From: a virus
Length of the DNA stretch: 21,473 nt
Strand: one strand, 5' to 3'
Virus record (IMG/VR): IMGVR_UViG_3300009172_000078
Coordinates: 1-21,473 of that record
This document shows, piece after piece, positions 1 to 8,961 of this stretch. The notes under the pieces are model-generated. The model saw nothing but the letters and a program-made list of their open reading frames with translations, did no database searches and had not been told where the DNA came from. A program made the position numbers and the translations under genes. Positions within the stretch are counted from its first letter, which is position 1. Each line of letters opens with the position of its first letter.

Positions 1-867
1 GCCTCTATAGATGACCTTGTCTCTAAGTTTGATGAGATTGGTATTACAGAGATAGAAGAGGAGTCTCCTTTTGTTACAGCTACTCTTGAAGAACTATACG
101 TTACACAAGTACAGACACCAGGTTTACGTTGGAGACTTAACTGGCTTAACAAATCACTAGGCTCTCTACGTAAGGGTGACTTTGGTTTTATCTTTGCTAG
201 ACCTGAGACTGGTAAGACTACTTTCTTAGCTAGTGAAATATCACACATGATTACTCAAACAGATGGAGATATACTTTGGTTCAACAACGAAGAACAAGGT
301 ACGAAAGTGTTGAGTAGATGTTACCAAGCAATACTAGGTATGACACAACAGCAAATGTTTTCTGATAGAGACTCTAACTATGCAACGTATAAAGAAATAG
401 AACAAGATAGACTACTCATAACAAACTCAGAGGATAGTACACACTATAAAAGTATAGAGAAAATACTAGCTTCTAGAAAACCTGCGTTAATTATCTTTGA
501 CCAGATAGATAAAATTACAGGATTCAAAGGAGATAGGAATGACTTAGTACTAAAACAAATCTACCAATGGGCAAGAGAGATAGCTAAGAAGTATGCACCA
601 GTTATAGCAGTCTCTCAGGCAGGTGGTACAGGTGAAGGAAAGCTTTGGCTTACTATGGATGATGTAGATGGTAGTAAGACAGGTAAGCAAGGTGAGGCTG
701 ATTGGATACTAGGCATAGGTATGGAACAAGATAATACCTCTAGAATCAGGTACTTAAACATCAGTAAAAATAAACTGTTAGGTGATAGTGATACCTTACC
801 TGACCTTCGACATGGCAGAAGCCAAGTCTTAATCAAGCCAGAAGTGGCACGTTTCGAGGATATATAA
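1..867 (+). CDS. Replicative DNA helicase, gp4/DnaB type (5' end outside window)
   Basis: The frame is open from base 1 to the TAA at 865-867, so this is the C-terminal 288 residues of a gene starting before the window. It carries a RecA-fold helicase core. The Walker A loop ARPETGKTT is at window residues 66-74 (bases 196-222), with Ala in place of the usual first Gly. Walker B is ALIIFDQID, followed by the strand APVIAVSQAGG, whose Gln fits motif H3 of DnaB-family helicases, and a basic NKLLGD segment near the end. By family knowledge it is a hexameric 5'-3' helicase at the phage fork. A primase domain, as in T7 gp4, would lie upstream and cannot be seen. The first ATG in frame (247) falls after Walker A and is not the true start. 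The stop lies two bases before the next ATG. Family call is firm; primase fusion is unknown. Confidence 0.88.
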   Translation, partial: ASIDDLVSKFDEIGITEIEEESPFVTATLEELYVTQVQTPGLRWRLNWLNKSLGSLRKGDFGFIFARPETGKTTFLASEISHMITQTDGDILWFNNEEQGTKVLSRCYQAILGMTQQQMFSDRDSNYATYKEIEQDRLLITNSEDSTHYKSIEKILASRKPALIIFDQIDKITGFKGDRNDLVLKQIYQWAREIAKKYAPVIAVSQAGGTGEGKLWLTMDDVDGSKTGKQGEADWILGIGMEQDNTSRIRYLNISKNKLLGDSDTLPDLRHGRSQVLIKPEVARFEDI

Positions 868-868
868 G

Positions 869-1012
869 ATGACGATAACTAAAAAGAGAGTATGTCATGT
901 ATGCAAAAAGACTGCACGTATTTGGGATAAGAAGAGATGGTGGTGTAGTATGGAAGCATACGAAGGTGAATACAATCTAAAGGGTGTATGCCCAAAGGAA
1001 AAAACTAAATGA
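869..1012 (+). CDS. Small cysteine-rich (zinc-ribbon-like) protein, 47 aa
   Basis: A 47-residue reading frame starts at ATG 869, two bases after the helicase stop, and ends with TGA 1010-1012, which overlaps the polymerase ATG at 1009. It fills the space between the two genes. The protein is basic and aromatic, with a CHVC knuckle (Cys9, Cys12) and further cysteines at 26 and 41, a spacing that could bind one zinc ion. The central stretch KKRWWC is strongly basic. Function is not recognised. The position between helicase and polymerase, and tight packing on both sides, suggest a small nucleic-acid-binding accessory of the replication module. That role is inference. The compact fit and ATGA overlap are what make it believable as a gene. 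Confidence 0.6.
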   Translation: MTITKKRVCHVCKKTARIWDKKRWWCSMEAYEGEYNLKGVCPKEKTK

Positions 1013-2160
1013 AGTACTTAACACTTGATGTAGAAACCTCCATTAGTAATAGTGGTAATCCTTTTGACGAGACTAACAAGCTAGTTATGGTAGGCTTAGT
1101 CGGTCATAAAATGTACCCAATCGAGTATGGTGATGAACCTTATGGTGAAAATCTCGCAGCGATTCAAACAGCGATTGATGAGTCTGATGTACTGGTAGGT
1201 TTTAATATTAAGTTTGACCTTCACTGGTTGTCTCGATATGGTATTAAGTTTGCTGATAAAAAGATATGGGACTGCCAACTTGTACACTTTATGTTAGGTG
1301 GACAGAAGGACACATACCCTAGCCTCAACAGTGTGTGTGAACACTATGGCTTTGAACAGAAGCTTGACATAGTTAAAGAGAACTACTGGAAGAATGGTAT
1401 TGACACTGCACAGGTTCCTAGAGATATACTGGAGGAATACTTACAGAAAGACCTAGAGCTTACCGAGCAAGTCATGCTTAAGCAACGTGAAGAACTACAA
1501 TCCAATCCTTTACTTAGTAGGTTAGTTTCATTACATAACCAAGACCTGCTAGGTTTACAAGAGATGGAATTTAACGGACTATTATTTAACCAACAATGGA
1601 GCGAAACACTTGGAAACGAACTCGAAGAACAAATCAACAAGCTCGACCAAAGACTTTTTCAGTATCATAATCTTCTTTCTTTCAATGCCAATTCTAATGA
1701 CCACATCAGCCGTTTACTATACGGCGGAGCTATTAGTTACAGGGTACAAGTCGATGATGGAGTCTATAAGACTGGTGAGAAAAAAGGATTAGTAAAAATG
1801 AAATGGGAAACTAGAGAGCAACACTACGATAGACTGTGTAAGCCTCTAAAAAATTCAGAGATGAAGAAGGAAGGATTCTTTTCTACTGATGAGAAGACAT
1901 TACGTTCTCTTAAAGGTAACAAGGTAGCTAAAGACGTGATTACTATTCTACTGACAAGGTCTGAATTAAACAAGAGAATGACAACATACTACCAAGGGTT
2001 ACCTAAGTTAATTGGTGAAATGAACTGGGAGTATGGTAAAATATACGGACAGCTCAATCAATGTGTAGCTAGGACAGGTAGACTATCAAGTAGTAAACCT
2101 AACCTACAAAACTTTGATGGAGAAATTAAAGGATTATTTTATTCGAGGTATAGCAGATGA
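1009..2160 (+). CDS. DNA polymerase family A, N-terminal piece: 3'-5' exonuclease plus first part of polymerase domain
   Basis: 383 residues. Residues 1-160 form a DEDDy proofreading exonuclease: Exo I is LDVET with Asp7 and Glu9, Exo II is GFNIKFD with Asn66 and Asp70, Exo III is YLQKD with Tyr144 and Asp148. The rest corresponds to the thumb and start of the palm, and ends with the conserved TGRLSSSKPNLQN at 356-368, the segment that precedes motif A in Pol I-like enzymes. The gene stops 16 residues later (TGA 2158-2160). The catalytic motifs A, B and C are in a separate gene starting at 2315, so this piece should proofread but cannot polymerise alone. No T7-style thioredoxin-binding insertion is evident, and the two pieces total only 621 residues against 704 in T7. 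The start overlaps the previous stop as ATGA. Confidence 0.88.
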   Translation: MKYLTLDVETSISNSGNPFDETNKLVMVGLVGHKMYPIEYGDEPYGENLAAIQTAIDESDVLVGFNIKFDLHWLSRYGIKFADKKIWDCQLVHFMLGGQKDTYPSLNSVCEHYGFEQKLDIVKENYWKNGIDTAQVPRDILEEYLQKDLELTEQVMLKQREELQSNPLLSRLVSLHNQDLLGLQEMEFNGLLFNQQWSETLGNELEEQINKLDQRLFQYHNLLSFNANSNDHISRLLYGGAISYRVQVDDGVYKTGEKKGLVKMKWETREQHYDRLCKPLKNSEMKKEGFFSTDEKTLRSLKGNKVAKDVITILLTRSELNKRMTTYYQGLPKLIGEMNWEYGKIYGQLNQCVARTGRLSSSKPNLQNFDGEIKGLFYSRYSR

Positions 2161-2315
2161 TAACTAACGAAGAAGAAGCTTGGATAGCACATGTCTCTTT
2201 AGACATAATACAAATTATAAACGAATATGGTATTGATGGAGCAGATATGCTACTTAGTAATATACCTCAAGAAACTCAAGACTATATAGTGCGTTCACTA
2301 GTGGTGACATACTAA
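2157..2315 (+). CDS. 52-residue micro-ORF lying between the two polymerase pieces
   Basis: The frame begins at ATG 2157, overlapping the stop of the exonuclease-bearing polymerase piece (ATGA), and ends at TAA 2313-2315, sharing a base with the ATG of the catalytic piece (TAATG). It therefore fills exactly the gap in the split polymerase. The product begins MITNEEEAWIAH, is acidic and looks largely helical, with alternating hydrophobic positions. No family is recognised. Because it is coupled on both sides, it could simply pass ribosomes from one polymerase piece to the next, or encode a small partner that helps the pieces associate. Both ideas are inference. An alternative is that the segment is a non-coding insertion, such as a spliced element; no intron core was recognised in it. 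Confidence 0.55.
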   Translation: MITNEEEAWIAHVSLDIIQIINEYGIDGADMLLSNIPQETQDYIVRSLVVTY

Positions 2316-3031
2316 TGTTACTGCAAGCGGATGCGAAGCAACTGGAGTGGATTGGTGCAACTTACCTATCTCAAGACAAGGTAGCATTAGATGAGATATG
2401 GAGAGAGGTAGACATGCACTCTGATAATCAGGCAAGGTTTAACCTACCTAGCCGACTAATCGCTAAGACGTTTGTGTTCCGATTAATCTATGGAGGCTCA
2501 GCATATTCATATGCCAATGACCCTAACTTTAGAGATATTGGTAACGAAACCTTTTGGCAAGACGTTATAGATTCTTTCTATAACAAGTACCAACGTCTCT
2601 ATAAATGGCATGAAGAGATTCAGTTCAATGCTAAACGAGACAGGAAACTAGTAATGCCTACTGGTCGTATCTATCACTTCGAACCTGAGGTTAAGTATGA
2701 CAAAGTCAAGTACCCACGAACAAAGATACTAAACTATCCTGTTCAAGGTTTAGGTGCGGACCTTATGGCAATTGCTAGAGTTTCACTACGCAACAGATTA
2801 AAAGGCATTGAAGGGGTCCAGTTAATTAATACTGTACATGACTCGATTATCATTGATTTTAATACTGATGTGTGTTATACTAATGACCTTGTTAAATTAG
2901 TTGACAAGTGTTTTAATGATGTACCAGAGAACTTCAAGAAAATGTTTGGAGTTGAATTTAACCTACCCATGCGAGTAGAGTGTCAAGTAGGTAAGACATG
3001 GGGTGACATGGAGATTGTAAATGCAAATTAA
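2315..3031 (+). CDS. DNA polymerase family A, C-terminal piece: catalytic palm and fingers
   Basis: 238 residues carrying all three family A polymerase motifs. Motif A is LLQADAKQLEW with catalytic Asp6; the usual DYSQIE is changed to DAKQLE. Motif B is RLIAKTFVFRLIYGG, with Arg47, Lys51, Phe55 and Tyr59. Phe55 matches E. coli Pol I Phe762. The NYPVQG..AD-type element is at 140-149, and motif C is NTVHDSII with His175 and Asp176 (Ser where Glu is usual). It begins immediately at motif A, so it lacks the exonuclease and thumb supplied by the gene at 1009-2160. The frame is also open upstream to 2261 and reads RLYSAFTSGDIL before the ATG, but that stretch has no standard start codon. The start shares a base with the previous TAA. 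The two pieces presumably assemble into one enzyme; that is inference. Confidence 0.88.
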   Translation: MLLQADAKQLEWIGATYLSQDKVALDEIWREVDMHSDNQARFNLPSRLIAKTFVFRLIYGGSAYSYANDPNFRDIGNETFWQDVIDSFYNKYQRLYKWHEEIQFNAKRDRKLVMPTGRIYHFEPEVKYDKVKYPRTKILNYPVQGLGADLMAIARVSLRNRLKGIEGVQLINTVHDSIIIDFNTDVCYTNDLVKLVDKCFNDVPENFKKMFGVEFNLPMRVECQVGKTWGDMEIVNAN

Positions 3032-3563
3032 TATTATAGACGTAGGCACACCAAACACACATTCTGCAAAGAATGGTCGGTCATACCAATCAATAGAAGT
3101 AACATACAAGGGAGACAATGGACAGACATCTTCTAAGAAGCTAATGTCTTTCAGTAACCCTGATGTGTTTAAGCAAGCTCAGACTTGGACTAAAGGTGAT
3201 GTAATTAATATCAATAGTCAGAAGGATGATGCAGGGTATTGGCAATGGATTGGTATCTTAGGTGCAGGCGAATCAGCACCAGTAGCAGTACAAACTAACT
3301 CAGCTAGCACAGGAGCTAAGCCTGCCACTAGAGTATCAGGTAGTAACTATCCTACTTCAGAGGAAAGAGATAAGACACAAGGCTTCATTGTACGACAGTC
3401 CTCTCTATCTAATGCAGTCAATACGTTAGCCAGTGGAGGTAAGACAGCTAGTGCAAATGATGTAATAGCCTTAGCTAAGGTATATGAGAAGTTTGTCATG
3501 GAGGGAGACGCCTCGGCACAAGCAACAAGTGTTGAAGATTTTCCTGATGACGTGCCTTTCTGA
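3021..3563 (+). CDS. Single-stranded DNA-binding protein
   Basis: 180 residues. The first 90 or so have the strand-rich, aromatic pattern of an OB fold, including QSIEVTYKGDNGQ and YWQWIGIL. A low-complexity linker rich in Ser, Thr, Ala and Pro follows. The last eight residues are DFPDDVPF, almost identical to the acidic tip of bacterial SSB, which docks partner enzymes. By family knowledge it coats single strands at the fork and recruits replication and repair proteins through the tip; a host or phage partner is likely. The ATG at 3021 lies 11 bases inside the polymerase gene and is preceded by GGAG at 3010-3013 with a 7-base spacing. The stop shares a base with the next ATG. The residues between linker and tip (about 110-165) look helical and are not explained. 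Confidence 0.85.
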   Translation: MQINIIDVGTPNTHSAKNGRSYQSIEVTYKGDNGQTSSKKLMSFSNPDVFKQAQTWTKGDVININSQKDDAGYWQWIGILGAGESAPVAVQTNSASTGAKPATRVSGSNYPTSEERDKTQGFIVRQSSLSNAVNTLASGGKTASANDVIALAKVYEKFVMEGDASAQATSVEDFPDDVPF

Positions 3564-4261
3564 TGCAAGCCTTAATTGACATGGATTTAGTCTGTTTCCG
3601 TTGTTCTGCTAGTGCAGAGAATGATGGAGCAGGCATTGCCATCTATCGTATGAATGATTTGATGGATGGAATCCTTGCGAAGGTAGGTGCAACTGAGTAC
3701 CGTGCATTTTTAACTGGTGCTACTAACTTCCGTAAATCTATCTATCCTGAGTACAAAGCTAATAGAACGGCGCCTAAGCCTCAGTATTTACAAGCCTGTA
3801 GAGAGTATGCAATGAACCAAATGGGTGCAGAAATGGCACCTGATGGGCTTGAGGCTGATGATTCATTAGGTATTAATCAAACAGACGAGACAATTATATG
3901 CTCTCTGGATAAAGACCTACTGATGATTCCAGGTAAACATTTCCAATGGGCTATTAGTGGTAAGAACTGGGAAAAACCTGACACATGGATTGACCAAACC
4001 TATGCTGATGGAATGAAACTATTCTATGAGCAGTGTATTAAAGGTGATACCTCAGACAACATCAAGGGTATCCCTGGTATGGGAGAAGCTAAGGCTCGTA
4101 AGGCTTTAGCATCTATCCATGATGAGTTAGGTATGTTTAATAAGGTTCGGGATATGTATGGTAACGATGAAGAGTTCCTTATGAACGCTAGAGTTCTTTG
4201 GATTAAAAGAAGTTTAGAAGATGACTTTGGAGATAGATTTGACGCATTCGTTTCGGAGTAA
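3563..4261 (+). CDS. 5'-3' exonuclease / flap endonuclease (T7 gp6-like, FEN family)
   Basis: 232 residues with the ordered acidic residues of the PIN-like FEN family: LIDMD (Asp6, Asp8); the arch element FRKSIYPEYKANR (56-68) with Lys65 and Arg68; GLEADDSLG (Glu97, Asp99, Asp100); CSLDKDLLMIPG (Asp116, Asp118); and GDTSDNIKGIPGMGEAKA (161-178), which combines Asp162 and Asp165 with the helix-3-turn-helix DNA clamp. In T7-like phages this enzyme removes RNA primers and helps degrade host DNA; that role is assigned by family. The length is typical for the short phage members. The start at 3563 overlaps the SSB stop (TGATG). The 3' end is overlapped by about 40 bases by the endonuclease I gene. 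Confidence 0.9.
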   Translation: MQALIDMDLVCFRCSASAENDGAGIAIYRMNDLMDGILAKVGATEYRAFLTGATNFRKSIYPEYKANRTAPKPQYLQACREYAMNQMGAEMAPDGLEADDSLGINQTDETIICSLDKDLLMIPGKHFQWAISGKNWEKPDTWIDQTYADGMKLFYEQCIKGDTSDNIKGIPGMGEAKARKALASIHDELGMFNKVRDMYGNDEEFLMNARVLWIKRSLEDDFGDRFDAFVSE

Positions 4262-4622: not shown

Positions 4623-4800
4623 TGAAGAAGGTAAGTGTACATTTAGCTTTGAGGTTGATAATGATGAGGCAGGTATACTAATGGAGTTTGCAATTAGAAC
4701 TATGATAGAGGCAGGACTTATTGATGTTCCAGGAGATGACAATCCTACGGATATGTTTGAGTTCTTTGCTGACGATGATAATAAGGAGACGTTACAATGA
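4597..4800 (+). CDS. Conserved-looking small acidic protein, 67 aa, unknown function
   Basis: 67 residues starting MNITNFVRDEEGKCTFSF and ending in a very acidic tail (FEFFADDDNKETLQ). The middle, GILMEFAIRTMIEAGLIDV, looks like a short amphipathic helix after a beta hairpin. It overlaps the resolvase gene by 26 bases and the next ATG by four (ATGA), so it is embedded in the replication operon. Function is not recognised. Small proteins at this point in T7-like operons are common and mostly uncharacterised. A structural hint of an N-terminal beta hairpin followed by one helix is all that can be drawn from the sequence. Confidence 0.7.
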   Translation: MNITNFVRDEEGKCTFSFEVDNDEAGILMEFAIRTMIEAGLIDVPGDDNPTDMFEFFADDDNKETLQ

Positions 4801-5549
4801 GTAAGATACTTGTACTAGATATCGAGACCTCGCCTCATACAGGCTTTCACTGGGGACTATGGCAGCAGAACATTAGCATATCCCAATTGATTGAGAGTTC
4901 AACAGTACTTTGTTGGGCAGCCAAATGGGTAGGAGAAAAGCAAGTACACTTTGCAAGCATCATGGAGTCTACTCCTAAGCAGATGATTACAAAGATACAT
5001 AAGTTAGTAGATGAAGCAGATGCTATCATTACCTATAACGGTAAGCGATTTGATATGCCTACTCTTAACAGAGAATTTCTACTACATAAGCTTCCTCCTC
5101 CTAGCCCTTACAAGGACATAGACTTATTACAAACAGCACGCAGTAAGTTTAAGTTTGCTAGTAATAAGCTAGACTATGTAGCACAAGAGTTAGGTGTAGG
5201 ACAAAAGACAAGCCATCAAGGTATGCCTCTGTGGATAGAGTGTATGAGTAAGAACCCTAAGGCTTGGAAGTTAATGAAGAAGTATAACTGTAATGATGTT
5301 AAGCTAACTGAAGAAGTATATACTAAGTTACTTGGATGGATAGTTACACCATTCAACCATAACACTCACAAGGGACACGAAGGACATGTATGCCCATCTT
5401 GTGGTGGTAGTCATATACAGAAGAGAGGTTACTCTCAAGTAGGCGCTAATAGCTATCAACGTTACCAGTGTATTGACTGTGGTAAGTGGAGTCAATCAAG
5501 TAAAGCAGTTAAAGAGCTAAAGAAAGCAAACTTCTTAAAAAGTATTTGA
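4797..5549 (+). CDS. DnaQ-like 3'-5' exonuclease (YprB-type RNase H fold) with C-terminal zinc ribbon
   Basis: 250 residues. The N-terminal domain has the DEDDy-type triad: LDIET (Asp8, Glu10), ITYNGKRFDMPTL (Asn81, Asp86) and YNCNDVKLTEEVY (Tyr163, Asp167). This arrangement fits the predicted exonucleases of the YprB/RNase H-like group. A zinc ribbon follows: CPSC at 199-202 and CIDC at 225-228, with the basic QKRGYSQ between them, likely a nucleic-acid-binding add-on. It is a second exonuclease beside the proofreading domain of the polymerase, and its substrate is unknown; repair, nucleic acid degradation or a polymerase auxiliary role are all possible. It starts with an ATGA overlap. Its TGA stop (5547-5549) lies inside the -35 hexamer of a consensus promoter. 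Confidence 0.85.
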   Translation: MSKILVLDIETSPHTGFHWGLWQQNISISQLIESSTVLCWAAKWVGEKQVHFASIMESTPKQMITKIHKLVDEADAIITYNGKRFDMPTLNREFLLHKLPPPSPYKDIDLLQTARSKFKFASNKLDYVAQELGVGQKTSHQGMPLWIECMSKNPKAWKLMKKYNCNDVKLTEEVYTKLLGWIVTPFNHNTHKGHEGHVCPSCGGSHIQKRGYSQVGANSYQRYQCIDCGKWSQSSKAVKELKKANFLKSI

Positions 5550-6065: not shown

Positions 6066-6246
6066 CTTAACCTTTACAGAATTATGTCAAGAGCTTGAGA
6101 AGATAGAAGAGATTGACTTAATGGAACTACTTGACATTGACTCTATGGATATAATAGATAACTTTCAGGATAGGATTGAAGATAACTTCGACAGACTACT
6201 AGAAGAAGTTGATAACTTAATTGAGGAGATAGATTTAGATGAGTAA
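6052..6246 (+). CDS. Very acidic small protein, 64 aa
   Basis: 64 residues with 23 Asp or Glu and only 4 Lys or Arg, a net charge near -19. Isoleucine and leucine recur every three to four residues among the acids, as in an amphipathic helix or short coiled coil (for example EEIDLMELLDIDSMDIIDN). No family is recognised. The charge resembles phage DNA-mimic proteins such as T7 Ocr, which block restriction enzymes, but Ocr is longer (116 residues) and no alignment is claimed. It overlaps both neighbours: 14 bases with the gene before and 8 with the ribonucleotide reductase. AAAGGA just upstream of the ATG is a fair ribosome site. Confidence 0.65.
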   Translation: MGIRNLTFTELCQELEKIEEIDLMELLDIDSMDIIDNFQDRIEDNFDRLLEEVDNLIEEIDLDE

Positions 6247-8098
6247 CAGTTTAGATAAGAGTCAAAAGATACTATCGGACATCACAGTATTTAATAAGTA
6301 CGCAAAGTATGTTCCTGAAGCAGAACGTCGTGAGACGTGGGAAGAGTTAGTAGAACGTAACATGGTAATGCACATTAGAAAGTACCCTAAATTAAAAGAG
6401 GAAATTAAAGATGTATATAAATACGTATTCAATCGTCAAGTGTTGCCTTCTATGCGTAGCTTACAATTTGGTGGAACTCCTATTGAACTTTCTAATAATC
6501 GTATGTTCAATTGTGCTTATTCCCCTGTTGACCATCCTGCCGTTTTCAGTGAGACGATGTTTAACTTACTTGGTGGGTCTGGGGTCGGCTTTAGCGTCCA
6601 AAGAAGACACACAGAGAAACTCCCTGACATCGTTGGTCCGACTGATAAAACACGCAGGTTCTTAGTAGGAGATTCAATTGAAGGGTGGGCTGATGCTGTT
6701 AAAGTATTAATTAAAGCCTATACCACTGGTAAGGCAAACCCTAACTTTGACTTTAGAGATGTTAGACCTAAAGGCTCTAGGCTTATTACCTCTGGTGGTA
6801 AAGCTCCAGGTCCTGACCCATTAAGACTATGCTTAGCTAACTTAAGAACTAAGCTTAACGGAGCAGTAGGTAGAAAGCTCAAGCCTCTTGAAGTACATGA
6901 CATGATTTGTCATATAGCTGATGCAGTGTTATCTGGTGGAATTAGACGTGCAGCGTTAATTAGTCTGTTCGACAAGGATGATTTAGATATGCTATCAGCT
7001 AAGAGTGGTGACTGGTGGGAACTTAATCCGCAGCGAGGTAGAGCTAATAACTCTGTGTCGTTGAACAGAGAGACCATGACAGAAGATGAGTGGAAGACAC
7101 TATGGAAACGTGTAGAAGAATCAGGCTCAGGAGAGCCAGGAGTATTCTGGACTAATAACCATGATGTTGGAACTAACCCTTGCGCTGAGATTAGCTTACG
7201 TCCTAACTCTTATTGTAACCTAGTAGAAGTAAACGTAAGTGATGTTAAGACTCAGAAAGAATTAAACAATAGAGTTAAAGCCGCGACTTTTATTGGTACT
7301 TTACAGGCAGGTTATACAGACTTCCATTATCTCAGGAGTGTCTGGAAAGAAACTTCAGAAGAGGATGCCTTGCTAGGTGTTAGTATGACTGGTATTGCTT
7401 CTGCAGGAGTCCTAGAGCTAGACTTAAAAGAAGCTTCAGCAGTAACTAAACTAGAGAATACTCGTGTGGCTAACCTCATAGGCATTAACGAGTCTGCTAG
7501 GATTACGACAGTAAAACCTGCAGGTACTACTAGCCTTGTCTTAGGTTCTAGTTCAGGTATCCATGCTTGGCATAATGATTATTATATTAGACGTATGAGG
7601 GTTGGTAAGAATGAACCTTTATATCAATATATGATAGACACTGTTCCTCAGCTTATCGAAGACTGCCATTTTAAACCTCATCTTGAGGCTGTTATGTCGT
7701 TCCCACAGAAAGCACCTGACAATGCTATCTTAAGAACAGAGCCATATAAAGCTATTTTAGAGAGAGTCAAACGATTTAATTTAGAATGGGTAGCTGGCGG
7801 ACACAACCACGGTGACAATCAACATAATGTATCGTGTACTATCTCGTTGAAAGACCACCAGTGGGAATCATGTGGTAAGTGGATGTGGGAGAATAGGTAT
7901 AACTACACAGGTATCTCTGTGTTACCCTATGATGGTGGTACCTACATACAAGCACCATTTGAAGATTGTGATGAAGCTACTTACACTAACCTATACAAAT
8001 ACCTCAAGCGTATAGACTTAACTAAGGTAGTTGAACATGATGATTTAACAGAAGCTAAAGATAACTTGGCTTGTAGTGGAGGTGCATGTGAGATATAA
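6239..8098 (+). CDS. nrdJ: Class II (adenosylcobalamin-dependent) ribonucleotide reductase, monomeric type
   Basis: 619 residues. It reduces ribonucleotides to deoxyribonucleotides with a radical made from coenzyme B12, giving dNTPs for phage replication. The active-site element NPCAEISL has the thiyl Cys315 with Asn313 and Glu317. Cys92 (NCAYSP) and Cys326 (SYCNLVE) fit the redox pair; the 11-residue step from Cys315 to Cys326 equals that between Cys408 and Cys419 of the Lactobacillus leichmannii enzyme. The last residues, CSGGACEI, carry the shuttle cysteines 612 and 617, spaced as in that enzyme (731 and 736). GSSSGIHAWHN and TTVKPAGTTS are further family signatures. It is shorter than the Lactobacillus protein (739), mainly before the active site. 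No oxygen-dependent partner subunit is needed. The gene appears intact. The host must supply or take up B12. Confidence 0.92.
   Translation: MSNSLDKSQKILSDITVFNKYAKYVPEAERRETWEELVERNMVMHIRKYPKLKEEIKDVYKYVFNRQVLPSMRSLQFGGTPIELSNNRMFNCAYSPVDHPAVFSETMFNLLGGSGVGFSVQRRHTEKLPDIVGPTDKTRRFLVGDSIEGWADAVKVLIKAYTTGKANPNFDFRDVRPKGSRLITSGGKAPGPDPLRLCLANLRTKLNGAVGRKLKPLEVHDMICHIADAVLSGGIRRAALISLFDKDDLDMLSAKSGDWWELNPQRGRANNSVSLNRETMTEDEWKTLWKRVEESGSGEPGVFWTNNHDVGTNPCAEISLRPNSYCNLVEVNVSDVKTQKELNNRVKAATFIGTLQAGYTDFHYLRSVWKETSEEDALLGVSMTGIASAGVLELDLKEASAVTKLENTRVANLIGINESARITTVKPAGTTSLVLGSSSGIHAWHNDYYIRRMRVGKNEPLYQYMIDTVPQLIEDCHFKPHLEAVMSFPQKAPDNAILRTEPYKAILERVKRFNLEWVAGGHNHGDNQHNVSCTISLKDHQWESCGKWMWENRYNYTGISVLPYDGGTYIQAPFEDCDEATYTNLYKYLKRIDLTKVVEHDDLTEAKDNLACSGGACEI
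8078..8082 (+). promoter_or_regulatory. Ribosome binding site deciding the HNH gene start
   Basis: GGAGG lies five bases before GTG 8088. It is built from the Gly-Gly codons of the reductase tail motif CSGGAC, so one stretch serves as both coding sequence and ribosome site. This favours GTG 8088 over the in-frame GTG codons at 8076 and 8082, which have the GGAGG inside or after them. Confidence 0.65.
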
Positions 8099-8456
8099 AC
8101 GTAAAGCAATAGATACACAACAGTATGGTAGACCCTGTCTTAATTCAGCAGGGTATCTTCAAGTATACAATACACATACTAAAAAGAAAGAGTACTTACA
8201 TAGAGTTATATGGGAGGAGCTTAATAGTTCCATCCCTGGTGACTTGACCATAGACCATATCAATAATAACAAATTAGATAATCGTATAGAGAATCTACAG
8301 TTACTTACTCGTAGTGCTAATGTTCAGAGAAATCGTAGTGGTGCTGCCTTTCAACGTAAGCCTGGTAGATGGGAAGCTTACAGAGGTCATAAATATGTAG
8401 GTACATTCGGAACTAAATGTGGAGCCTTAATGGCGGCAAGGATATCAGAGATATGA
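8088..8456 (+). CDS. HNH homing-type endonuclease (free-standing)
   Basis: 122 residues from GTG 8088, which has GGAGG five bases upstream; a longer form from GTG 8076 is possible. The HNH core is LHRVIWEEL (His38), TIDHINNNKLDNRIENLQLL (54-73, Asp56, His57, Asn65) and the basic TRSANVQRN. After it, a GRWEAYRGHKYVGTFGT segment resembles the AP2-like DNA-binding repeat found in many phage HNH enzymes, here cut short. Such enzymes nick or cut alleles lacking the gene and so spread it. It overlaps the last 11 bases of the intact reductase gene rather than interrupting it. RNR genes are frequent homing targets, so the uncut target may be the reductase of related phages. The stop overlaps the next ATG. 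Confidence 0.85.
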   Translation: MRYKRKAIDTQQYGRPCLNSAGYLQVYNTHTKKKEYLHRVIWEELNSSIPGDLTIDHINNNKLDNRIENLQLLTRSANVQRNRSGAAFQRKPGRWEAYRGHKYVGTFGTKCGALMAARISEI

Positions 8457-8593
8457 TTACAACCTTTAGTACGATTTGTGGAGTACAATTAGGAATCGAA
8501 CACTTCTATCAACAAGTAGAGGATGTCACAGTAGGATACTTCTTAATTGATATATTTATTATACGTATACAGTTTGCGTGGTATTCAGAATGA
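8453..8593 (+). CDS. Small hydrophobic protein, 46 aa
   Basis: 46 residues from ATG 8453, overlapping the HNH stop, to TGA 8591-8593, which overlaps the next ATG at 8590 (ATGA). It begins MITTFSTICGVQLGIEHF and ends with the hydrophobic stretch YFLIDIFIIRIQFAWY. The Ile and Phe content could form a beta sheet core or a short membrane segment interrupted by Asp33 and Arg38. Function is not recognised. The tight packing supports it as a gene. From memory, similar very short proteins with a LGI...DLFIIRI pattern occur in other podophages, but I could not check this. Confidence 0.55.
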   Translation: MITTFSTICGVQLGIEHFYQQVEDVTVGYFLIDIFIIRIQFAWYSE

Positions 8594-8961
8594 AGGTATG
8601 CGTGATAGGTAGTCGGTCATTAGATAGGGCGGAGGTAATCTTCCCTATCATCGATAAATTTGTAGAAGATTATAAAGGTACACCAATTACCTTTCTGATT
8701 GGCAGTGCAAAAGGTGTTGACCCTTTAGCTAAGAAGTTTGCAGTTGCTAGAGGTATTGACATTGTGGAGTTTTTGCCGTATCATTTAATAGACCCGACAG
8801 CAGAGTTTGATAGTAAGTATTTCTTTGTTAGGACTAAACAGATGATTGACAATGCAGATAAAGTTCTCGCTATCTGGGATACACGTAGTAAAGGTACCGA
8901 GTATGGTATCAAGTACTCTCAGAAGCGAAGTCTACCAGTGATGGTAGTCAAGTGCCCTTAG
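8590..8961 (+). CDS. SLOG-superfamily protein (DUF2493/YspA-like)
   Basis: 123 residues from ATG 8590, which overlaps the previous stop as ATGA; an upstream GTG (8578) adds four residues but is less likely. The fold signature is Rossmann-like: VIGSRSL at the start, LIGSAKGVDPLAKKFA around 41-56, then YFFVRTKQMIDNADKVLAIW and DTRSKGTEYGI. This matches the DUF2493 branch of the SLOG group, whose members are thought to bind nucleotides or nucleotide-derived ligands. The phage role is unknown. Being last in the + strand operon, it may be an accessory gene for nucleotide salvage or for handling nucleotide signals made by host defence; both are inference. The gene stop lies inside the first of three hairpins. 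Confidence 0.75.
   Translation: MKVCVIGSRSLDRAEVIFPIIDKFVEDYKGTPITFLIGSAKGVDPLAKKFAVARGIDIVEFLPYHLIDPTAEFDSKYFFVRTKQMIDNADKVLAIWDTRSKGTEYGIKYSQKRSLPVMVVKCP

Follow-up and report, generated by a model that had tools for sequence, protein, structure and literature searches.

The family A DNA polymerase encoded by the window, a 21,473-nucleotide stretch of viral DNA (IMG/VR record IMGVR_UViG_3300009172_000078), is probably a replicative enzyme made as two subunits from genes in pieces, the split being most likely the work of a homing endonuclease and small genes having later moved through the resulting slot. The split itself is already known from the Methylophilales phages MEP401 and MEP402 and their relatives, in which a small ORF lies between the two polymerase genes and the presence of an intron was left open (PMC10580990). 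New are the case against introns and frameshifts, the single origin of the split, an independent split in Vibrio phage ICP2, and the trail of homing endonucleases.

Anatomy of the split polymerase gene

A first, sequence-only reading had placed the two pieces at positions 1009–2160 and 2315–3031, with the catalytic Asp of motif A as residue 6 of the second, and these coordinates and motif positions proved exact. The 154 bases in between hold a third ORF that it missed and that overlaps both neighbors. The features of the locus are as follows.

1009–2160, + strand: polA-N, 383 amino acids, 3′–5′ exonuclease and thumb, plus the opening segment of the palm (Pfam/PHROG matches)
2074–2112, + strand: palm motif TGRLSSSKPNLQN, located in polA-N yet part of one active site together with polA-C (invariant residues in alignment A2)
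2145–2148, + strand: GAGG, Shine-Dalgarno (SD)-like site for the small ORF, within the 3′ end of polA-N (predicted anti-SD pairing, −7.3 kcal/mol)
2157–2315, + strand: small acidic ORF S, 52 amino acids, between the polA halves (sharing ATGA with polA-N and TAATG with polA-C)
2303–2307, + strand: GGTGA, SD-like site for polA-C (predicted pairing, −7.2 kcal/mol)
2315–3031, + strand: polA-C, 238 amino acids, remaining palm and fingers, opening with the β-strand of the motif A Asp (Pfam/PHROG matches)
2330–2332, + strand: catalytic Asp of motif A, Asp-6 of polA-C (MLLQAD), invariant in alignment A3 and aligned with EADFAQLE of unsplit enzymes
2453–2491, + strand: motif B (O-helix) RLIAKTFVFRLIY, with Arg-47, Lys-51, Phe-55, and Tyr-59 of polA-C
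2837–2845, + strand: motif C, His-175, Asp-176, and Ser-177 of polA-C, invariant in alignment A3

Both pieces match the Pfam family DNA_pol_A (polA-N with 2.9e-19, polA-C with 4.2e-22), and polA-N also matches the exonuclease family exo1 (1.4e-5). On the DNA_pol_A profile polA-N covers positions 37–131 and polA-C positions 154–381, so that the matches are consecutive and do not overlap; those to PHROG_17 are likewise consecutive. The exonuclease residues Asp-7/Glu-9, Asn-66/Asp-70, and Tyr-144/Asp-148 of polA-N are invariant in the 34 sequences of alignment A2, as are residues 356–368, which form the palm motif. This motif, TGRLSSSKPNLQN, aligns with TGRLSSTEPNLQN of Bst Pol I. The Phe of motif B occupies the position of Escherichia coli Phe-762 and T7 Tyr-526. 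Motifs A, B, and C, the TGRL/PNLQN palm motif, and a predicted Pol I fold mark the enzyme as a family A polymerase. Jointly, polA-N and polA-C contain all exonuclease and polymerase motifs, and the Pfam matches and invariant residues thus bear out the earlier claim that no catalytic or proofreading residue is missing across the two pieces.

The predicted structure of polA-C (pLDDT 93.7, pTM 0.89) is a confident palm/fingers module on its own, with Pol θ and Bst/Taq Pol I as its best Foldseek matches (query-normalized TM ∼0.8). When polA-N is predicted as a single chain, its exonuclease and thumb fold well and the last ∼35 residues are poorly ordered. The predicted folds of both halves match Pol I structures. 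In known family A enzymes, TGRLSS..PNLQN and motifs A, B, and C form one active site. The former is invariant in polA-N and the latter are invariant in polA-C, so that each half lacks residues that the other supplies. Because both sets of motifs are conserved and build one active site, the halves should still work together. Between the window and locus L010, dN/dS is ∼0.12 for polA-N and ∼0.05 for polA-C; other pairs are similarly low, giving ∼0.05–0.15 for both halves, which indicates strong purifying selection.

In the frame of polA-N stop codons occur across the interval, and polA-C lies in a different frame. An SD-like sequence precedes all three starts (polA-N, small ORF, and polA-C). Among relatives, 43 distinct polA-C starts show a mean anti-SD pairing of −5.6, compared with −3.5 at internal ATGs (p = 7e-9). 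Both pieces are thus conserved, as judged by dN/dS, and have SD-like signals of their own, as judged by predicted pairing, which is the pattern of genes in pieces.

We infer from these sequences that the halves are translated in a coupled manner, assemble, are active, and owe their separation to homing. The three overlapping cistrons stand in a row, from polA-N through the small acidic ORF to polA-C. The break replaces the turn between two β-strands of the palm, polA-N ending with ...SRY and a stop and the chain restarting with Met and LLQAD. The two products would then reassociate noncovalently, the tail of polA-N (TGRLSSSKPNLQN...SRY) packing back onto the palm of polA-C, and the reassembled pair would act as one polymerase with proofreading.

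The small ORF fills the 154-base gap, its start lying in the stop codon of polA-N (ATGA) and its stop in the start codon of polA-C (TAATG). It is 87% conserved in L010, with a dN/dS of ∼0.19. Relatives occupy the same slot in MEP401/402, L010, L017, L053, L066, and L058, with tandem copies in L017 and L053. The family is short and acidic and includes MEP401 ORF14, an HMM having been built with both. It is confined to the gap between the polA halves in every locus examined and in all 16 loci from its own scan. The near relatives L011 and L013 do without it, and the small ORF is dispensable in the clade. It has no match in Pfam or PHROG, and its L053 relative, used as query, has none in the phage collection. 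From its position, the small ORF possibly acts with the polymerase.

The window also carries an extra 3′–5′ exonuclease gene (4797–5549, + strand; phrog_403, “DNA polymerase exonuclease subunit”), the product of which has a tail like a zinc ribbon; it is additional to the exonuclease domain of polA-N.

One break in a large clade

The question of whether other phages share the split and its boundary, raised in the sequence-only reading, is answered by 63 distinct junction sequences from ∼110 viral loci with both halves (some contigs were collected twice), and the same split is published for family A enzymes of marine podophages, namely MEP401/402 (PMC10580990). In all 63, the break falls at the same residue, after ...SRY and before a start of the type M/L-L-L-Q-A-D. 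polA-N usually extends 0–4 residues past SRY and is longer in Alcaligenes phage QDWS535. The phage records that a tblastn search returned, each with its polymerase in two genes, were MEP401/402, QDWS535, and two phages from spring metagenomes; with the C pieces of QDWS535 and ICP2 as queries, scans of viral contigs returned no relatives. A sequencing error, the correction of which would rejoin the frames and overturn the earlier reading, is ruled out by the recurrence of the split at the same residue in about 60 distinct junctions, isolate genomes and many contigs among them. A split intein was also rejected, since polA-N ends 2 residues past SRY and the initiator Met of polA-C adjoins motif A, with no extra sequence.

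The break coincides with a short turn in unsplit relatives (SRF-DGG-KVMEADF in HMO-2011, SRW-DGG-SVMEADF in CRP-345). By polA-C (29–32%), HMO-2011-type, CRP, and HTVC033P enzymes belong to the nearest relatives with a single chain; each is encoded by one unsplit gene and has, as DGG in HMO-2011 and CRP-345, a short turn where the window has a stop and a restart. They share with the window the His-Asp-Ser form of motif C, which the earlier reading had noted correctly. A tie between this form and the split is ruled out, as unsplit HMO-2011, CRP-345, VpV262, and HTVC033P all have it. As for motif A, DAK is typically found in the closer split-clade members.

What lies between the halves varies widely. 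They overlap by one base (TAATG) in 12 distinct junctions and by 17 nucleotides, in a different frame, in 6. Elsewhere they are separated by short gaps of 1, 48, 83, or 90 bases or by 154–456 bases filled with single or double small ORFs, and in MW202796 they stand 3.6 kb apart with other genes in between. The full range thus runs from the 17-nucleotide overlap through TAATG, 1, 48, and 83–959 to 3598 nucleotides, and polA-C occurs in all three frames (0, 1, and 2) relative to polA-N.

In a tree of 65 polymerases, all 49 enzymes with the window-type split form one clade (SH-aLRT 100) that includes the window and QDWS535. The window-type split has a single origin, in the common ancestor of these enzymes, and the split state is ancient, stable, and common to a large clade. 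The insert state switched between present and absent at least 9 times within it; in L093 and L094, for example, the halves are 97–98% identical, with a 1-nucleotide gap in the former and a 279-base insert in the latter. The split therefore outlives its inserts.

The closest described counterparts are MEP401/402. Their gene order (helicase, polA-N, small ORF, polA-C, exonuclease, and endonuclease; the polymerase region being MEP ORF13/14/15) is that of the window, the boundary is the same, the halves are 58% (N) and 65% (C) identical, and the small ORF family is shared, but the small ORF has 77 amino acids instead of 52 and the overlaps differ. The window thus has the SRY/MLLQAD break, the exonuclease-containing N gene, the PF00476 C gene, and the small ORF of the MEP401 type. 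The comparison with these phages (Zobellviridae) covered the replication genes, and genomes are known in which a MEP401-type replication module is combined with other structural genes (PMC10580990).

A replicative polymerase, usually a single chain, can thus last over long evolutionary times as two proteins cut beside the active site. With cistrons that abut at one extreme and lie 3.6 kb apart at the other, the relatives form a natural series in which to study how split enzymes arise and persist, and the break offers a ready-made site for engineering two-part family A polymerases. Annotation pipelines that expect one frame, and surveys of viruses by polA, can miscount such phages.

Origin of the break

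HNH endonuclease ORFs stand between the polA halves in three sampled lineages (L030, L119, and L057/L058), and ICP2 has an HNH gene at its own split site. The endonucleases of L030 and L119, which are distant lineages, belong to one family (44% identical) and occupy the same site; that of L057/L058 is of another type and that of ICP2 of a third. Behind the HNH gene of L030, the 3′ end of polA-N (codons for TGRLSS..SRY) is present a second time in diverged form, probably left behind when the endonuclease drove an exchange of flanking DNA. Because of the same-family endonucleases at one site, the other HNH genes in L057/L058 and ICP2, and this duplicated tail, insertion of an HNH homing endonuclease gene is, to judge by the genomes, the most likely cause of the split. 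The window gap contains no endonuclease gene by Pfam or PHROG, and the 52-residue ORF is not an endonuclease, so the homing origin rests on the relatives. In the course of events that we propose, an ancestral HNH gene would have inserted one time at the conserved coding region of motif A. It would later have been lost or replaced, and unrelated small genes, or none, would then have passed through the slot, with the polymerase staying in two pieces throughout.

Elsewhere in the window, an HNH_3 endonuclease ORF with a GTG start (8076–8456, + strand) overlaps the 3′ end of a ribonucleotide reductase gene (6239–8098); the phage thus has a free-standing homing-type endonuclease at another place. 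Some slot ORFs of a single subclade (L107, 2104–2424; L033, 5708–6001; L089, 1686–1946; and L108, 4663–4947) have what looks like a single membrane segment at the N terminus and a tail that is acidic and rich in proline; L107 alone shows a match, and a very weak one, to an Rz-like spanin.

Splits of this kind have precedents. The sequence-only reading had rightly pointed to those of phage B-family polymerases: in Aeromonas phages 25 and 44RR, gp43 is encoded in two cistrons (43A/43B) with a seg endonuclease gene or untranslated sequence between them, and the halves from phage 25 co-purify and are active (PMC2988022). These are, in contrast to the window enzyme, family B polymerases of T4-like myophages, with another fold and break position. 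In phage Aeh1 the essential ribonucleotide reductase NrdA is split by the free-standing homing endonuclease gene mobE and is fully active as a split protein (PMC2988022); here the enzyme is a different one, and the endonuclease is still in place.

The same literature supplies a caveat, raised for gene 43 of phage 25 (PMC2988022): a homing endonuclease gene could have invaded a gene that was already split. Accordingly, a two-subunit enzyme might have come from simple fission, through a stop at the hairpin followed by a new start, as seen in forms with a 17-nucleotide overlap, and endonuclease and other genes would have entered the boundary later. Insert-free junctions are frequent and turn up in many parts of the tree, many unrelated genes have occupied the slot, and the order of fission before entry was discussed for phage 25 gene 43 as well. 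Simple fission does not predict, however, that HNH genes of one family should sit at the same site in the distant lineages L030 and L119 or that another should sit at the independent split of ICP2. We regard fission as a possible but somewhat doubtful beginning.

The ICP2 group (Icepovirus) resembles the window in that two neighboring cistrons encode its family A polymerase; in some genomes either a small ORF or an HNH gene (gp51) stands between them, and in others they are 9 nucleotides apart. Its break lies about 12 residues upstream of that of the window (PNLQNISN / MSDIKR). In the 65-polymerase tree the ICP2-type enzymes group with unsplit Autographiviridae enzymes, and a common origin of the two splits was rejected by constraining them to one clade (AU p = 0.0018, to be read with caution, as long branches affect the deep parts of the tree). 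A more far-reaching reading is that HNH homing endonucleases split family A replicases independently at least twice, in the window clade and in ICP2, at nearly the same palm hairpin, and that the small ORF of the window lineage, which overlaps both halves and was not found elsewhere, is a third polymerase subunit such as an assembly or processivity factor. We consider this combination unlikely.

Splicing, frameshifting, and decay

A self-splicing group I intron between two exons, with one polypeptide as its product, was suggested for MEP401/402 (PMC10580990). Group I introns are indeed frequent in phage polymerase genes. One lies within polA-C of L120, at motif B after VFR (Rfam RF00028, 4113–4478), and the deposited ICP2 record joins two exons around the HNH gene; our literature search turned up nothing published on an intron in the polymerase gene of ICP2. 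However, the Rfam search, for which the L120 intron served as positive control, detected no intron where polA-N gives way to polA-C, in the window or in those relatives that it covered. In 18 distinct junctions (TAATG or 17-nucleotide overlap) no DNA intervenes and the halves are still in different frames. Many members have nothing to splice, because their halves abut or overlap. The window interval is coding and under selection, and a typical group I core needs more than 154 nucleotides. Splicing at this junction is very improbable.

At the motif B position of the L120 intron, polA-C of L119 carries an insert with an HNH-like ORF (3458–3982).

Programmed ribosomal frameshifting or readthrough, by which the halves would be joined into a full-length protein, deserves equally little credence. 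The ATGA, TAATG, and 17-nucleotide overlaps look superficially like frameshift sites, but the frame relation varies (0, 1, or 2) and gaps range from 1 to 3598 nucleotides with the same N and C termini, and so there is no conserved frameshift geometry among the relatives. The SD-like site of polA-C itself also argues against a fusion.

That polA is a decaying pseudogene with another polymerase doing the work is scarcely credible: split polymerases are often signs of frameshifts and the window has the separate exonuclease-subunit gene (4797–5549, phrog_403), but both halves are under purifying selection, all motifs are intact throughout the clade, and the split state is ancient and stable. The earlier suggestion that two subunits form a functioning enzyme and that the gene is not decaying agrees well with this selection, with the fixed boundary and the SD-like sites before polA-C, and with persistence of the halves at a distance of 3.6 kb.

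In MW202697 (L006, at about 5038–5068) and L118 (at about 3980–4001), the frame at the start of polA-C is disturbed near motif A, possibly through an assembly or homopolymer error. In the window, a SLOG-family gene (YspA-like, YAcAr; 8578–8961, + strand) separates the replication genes from those on the minus strand.
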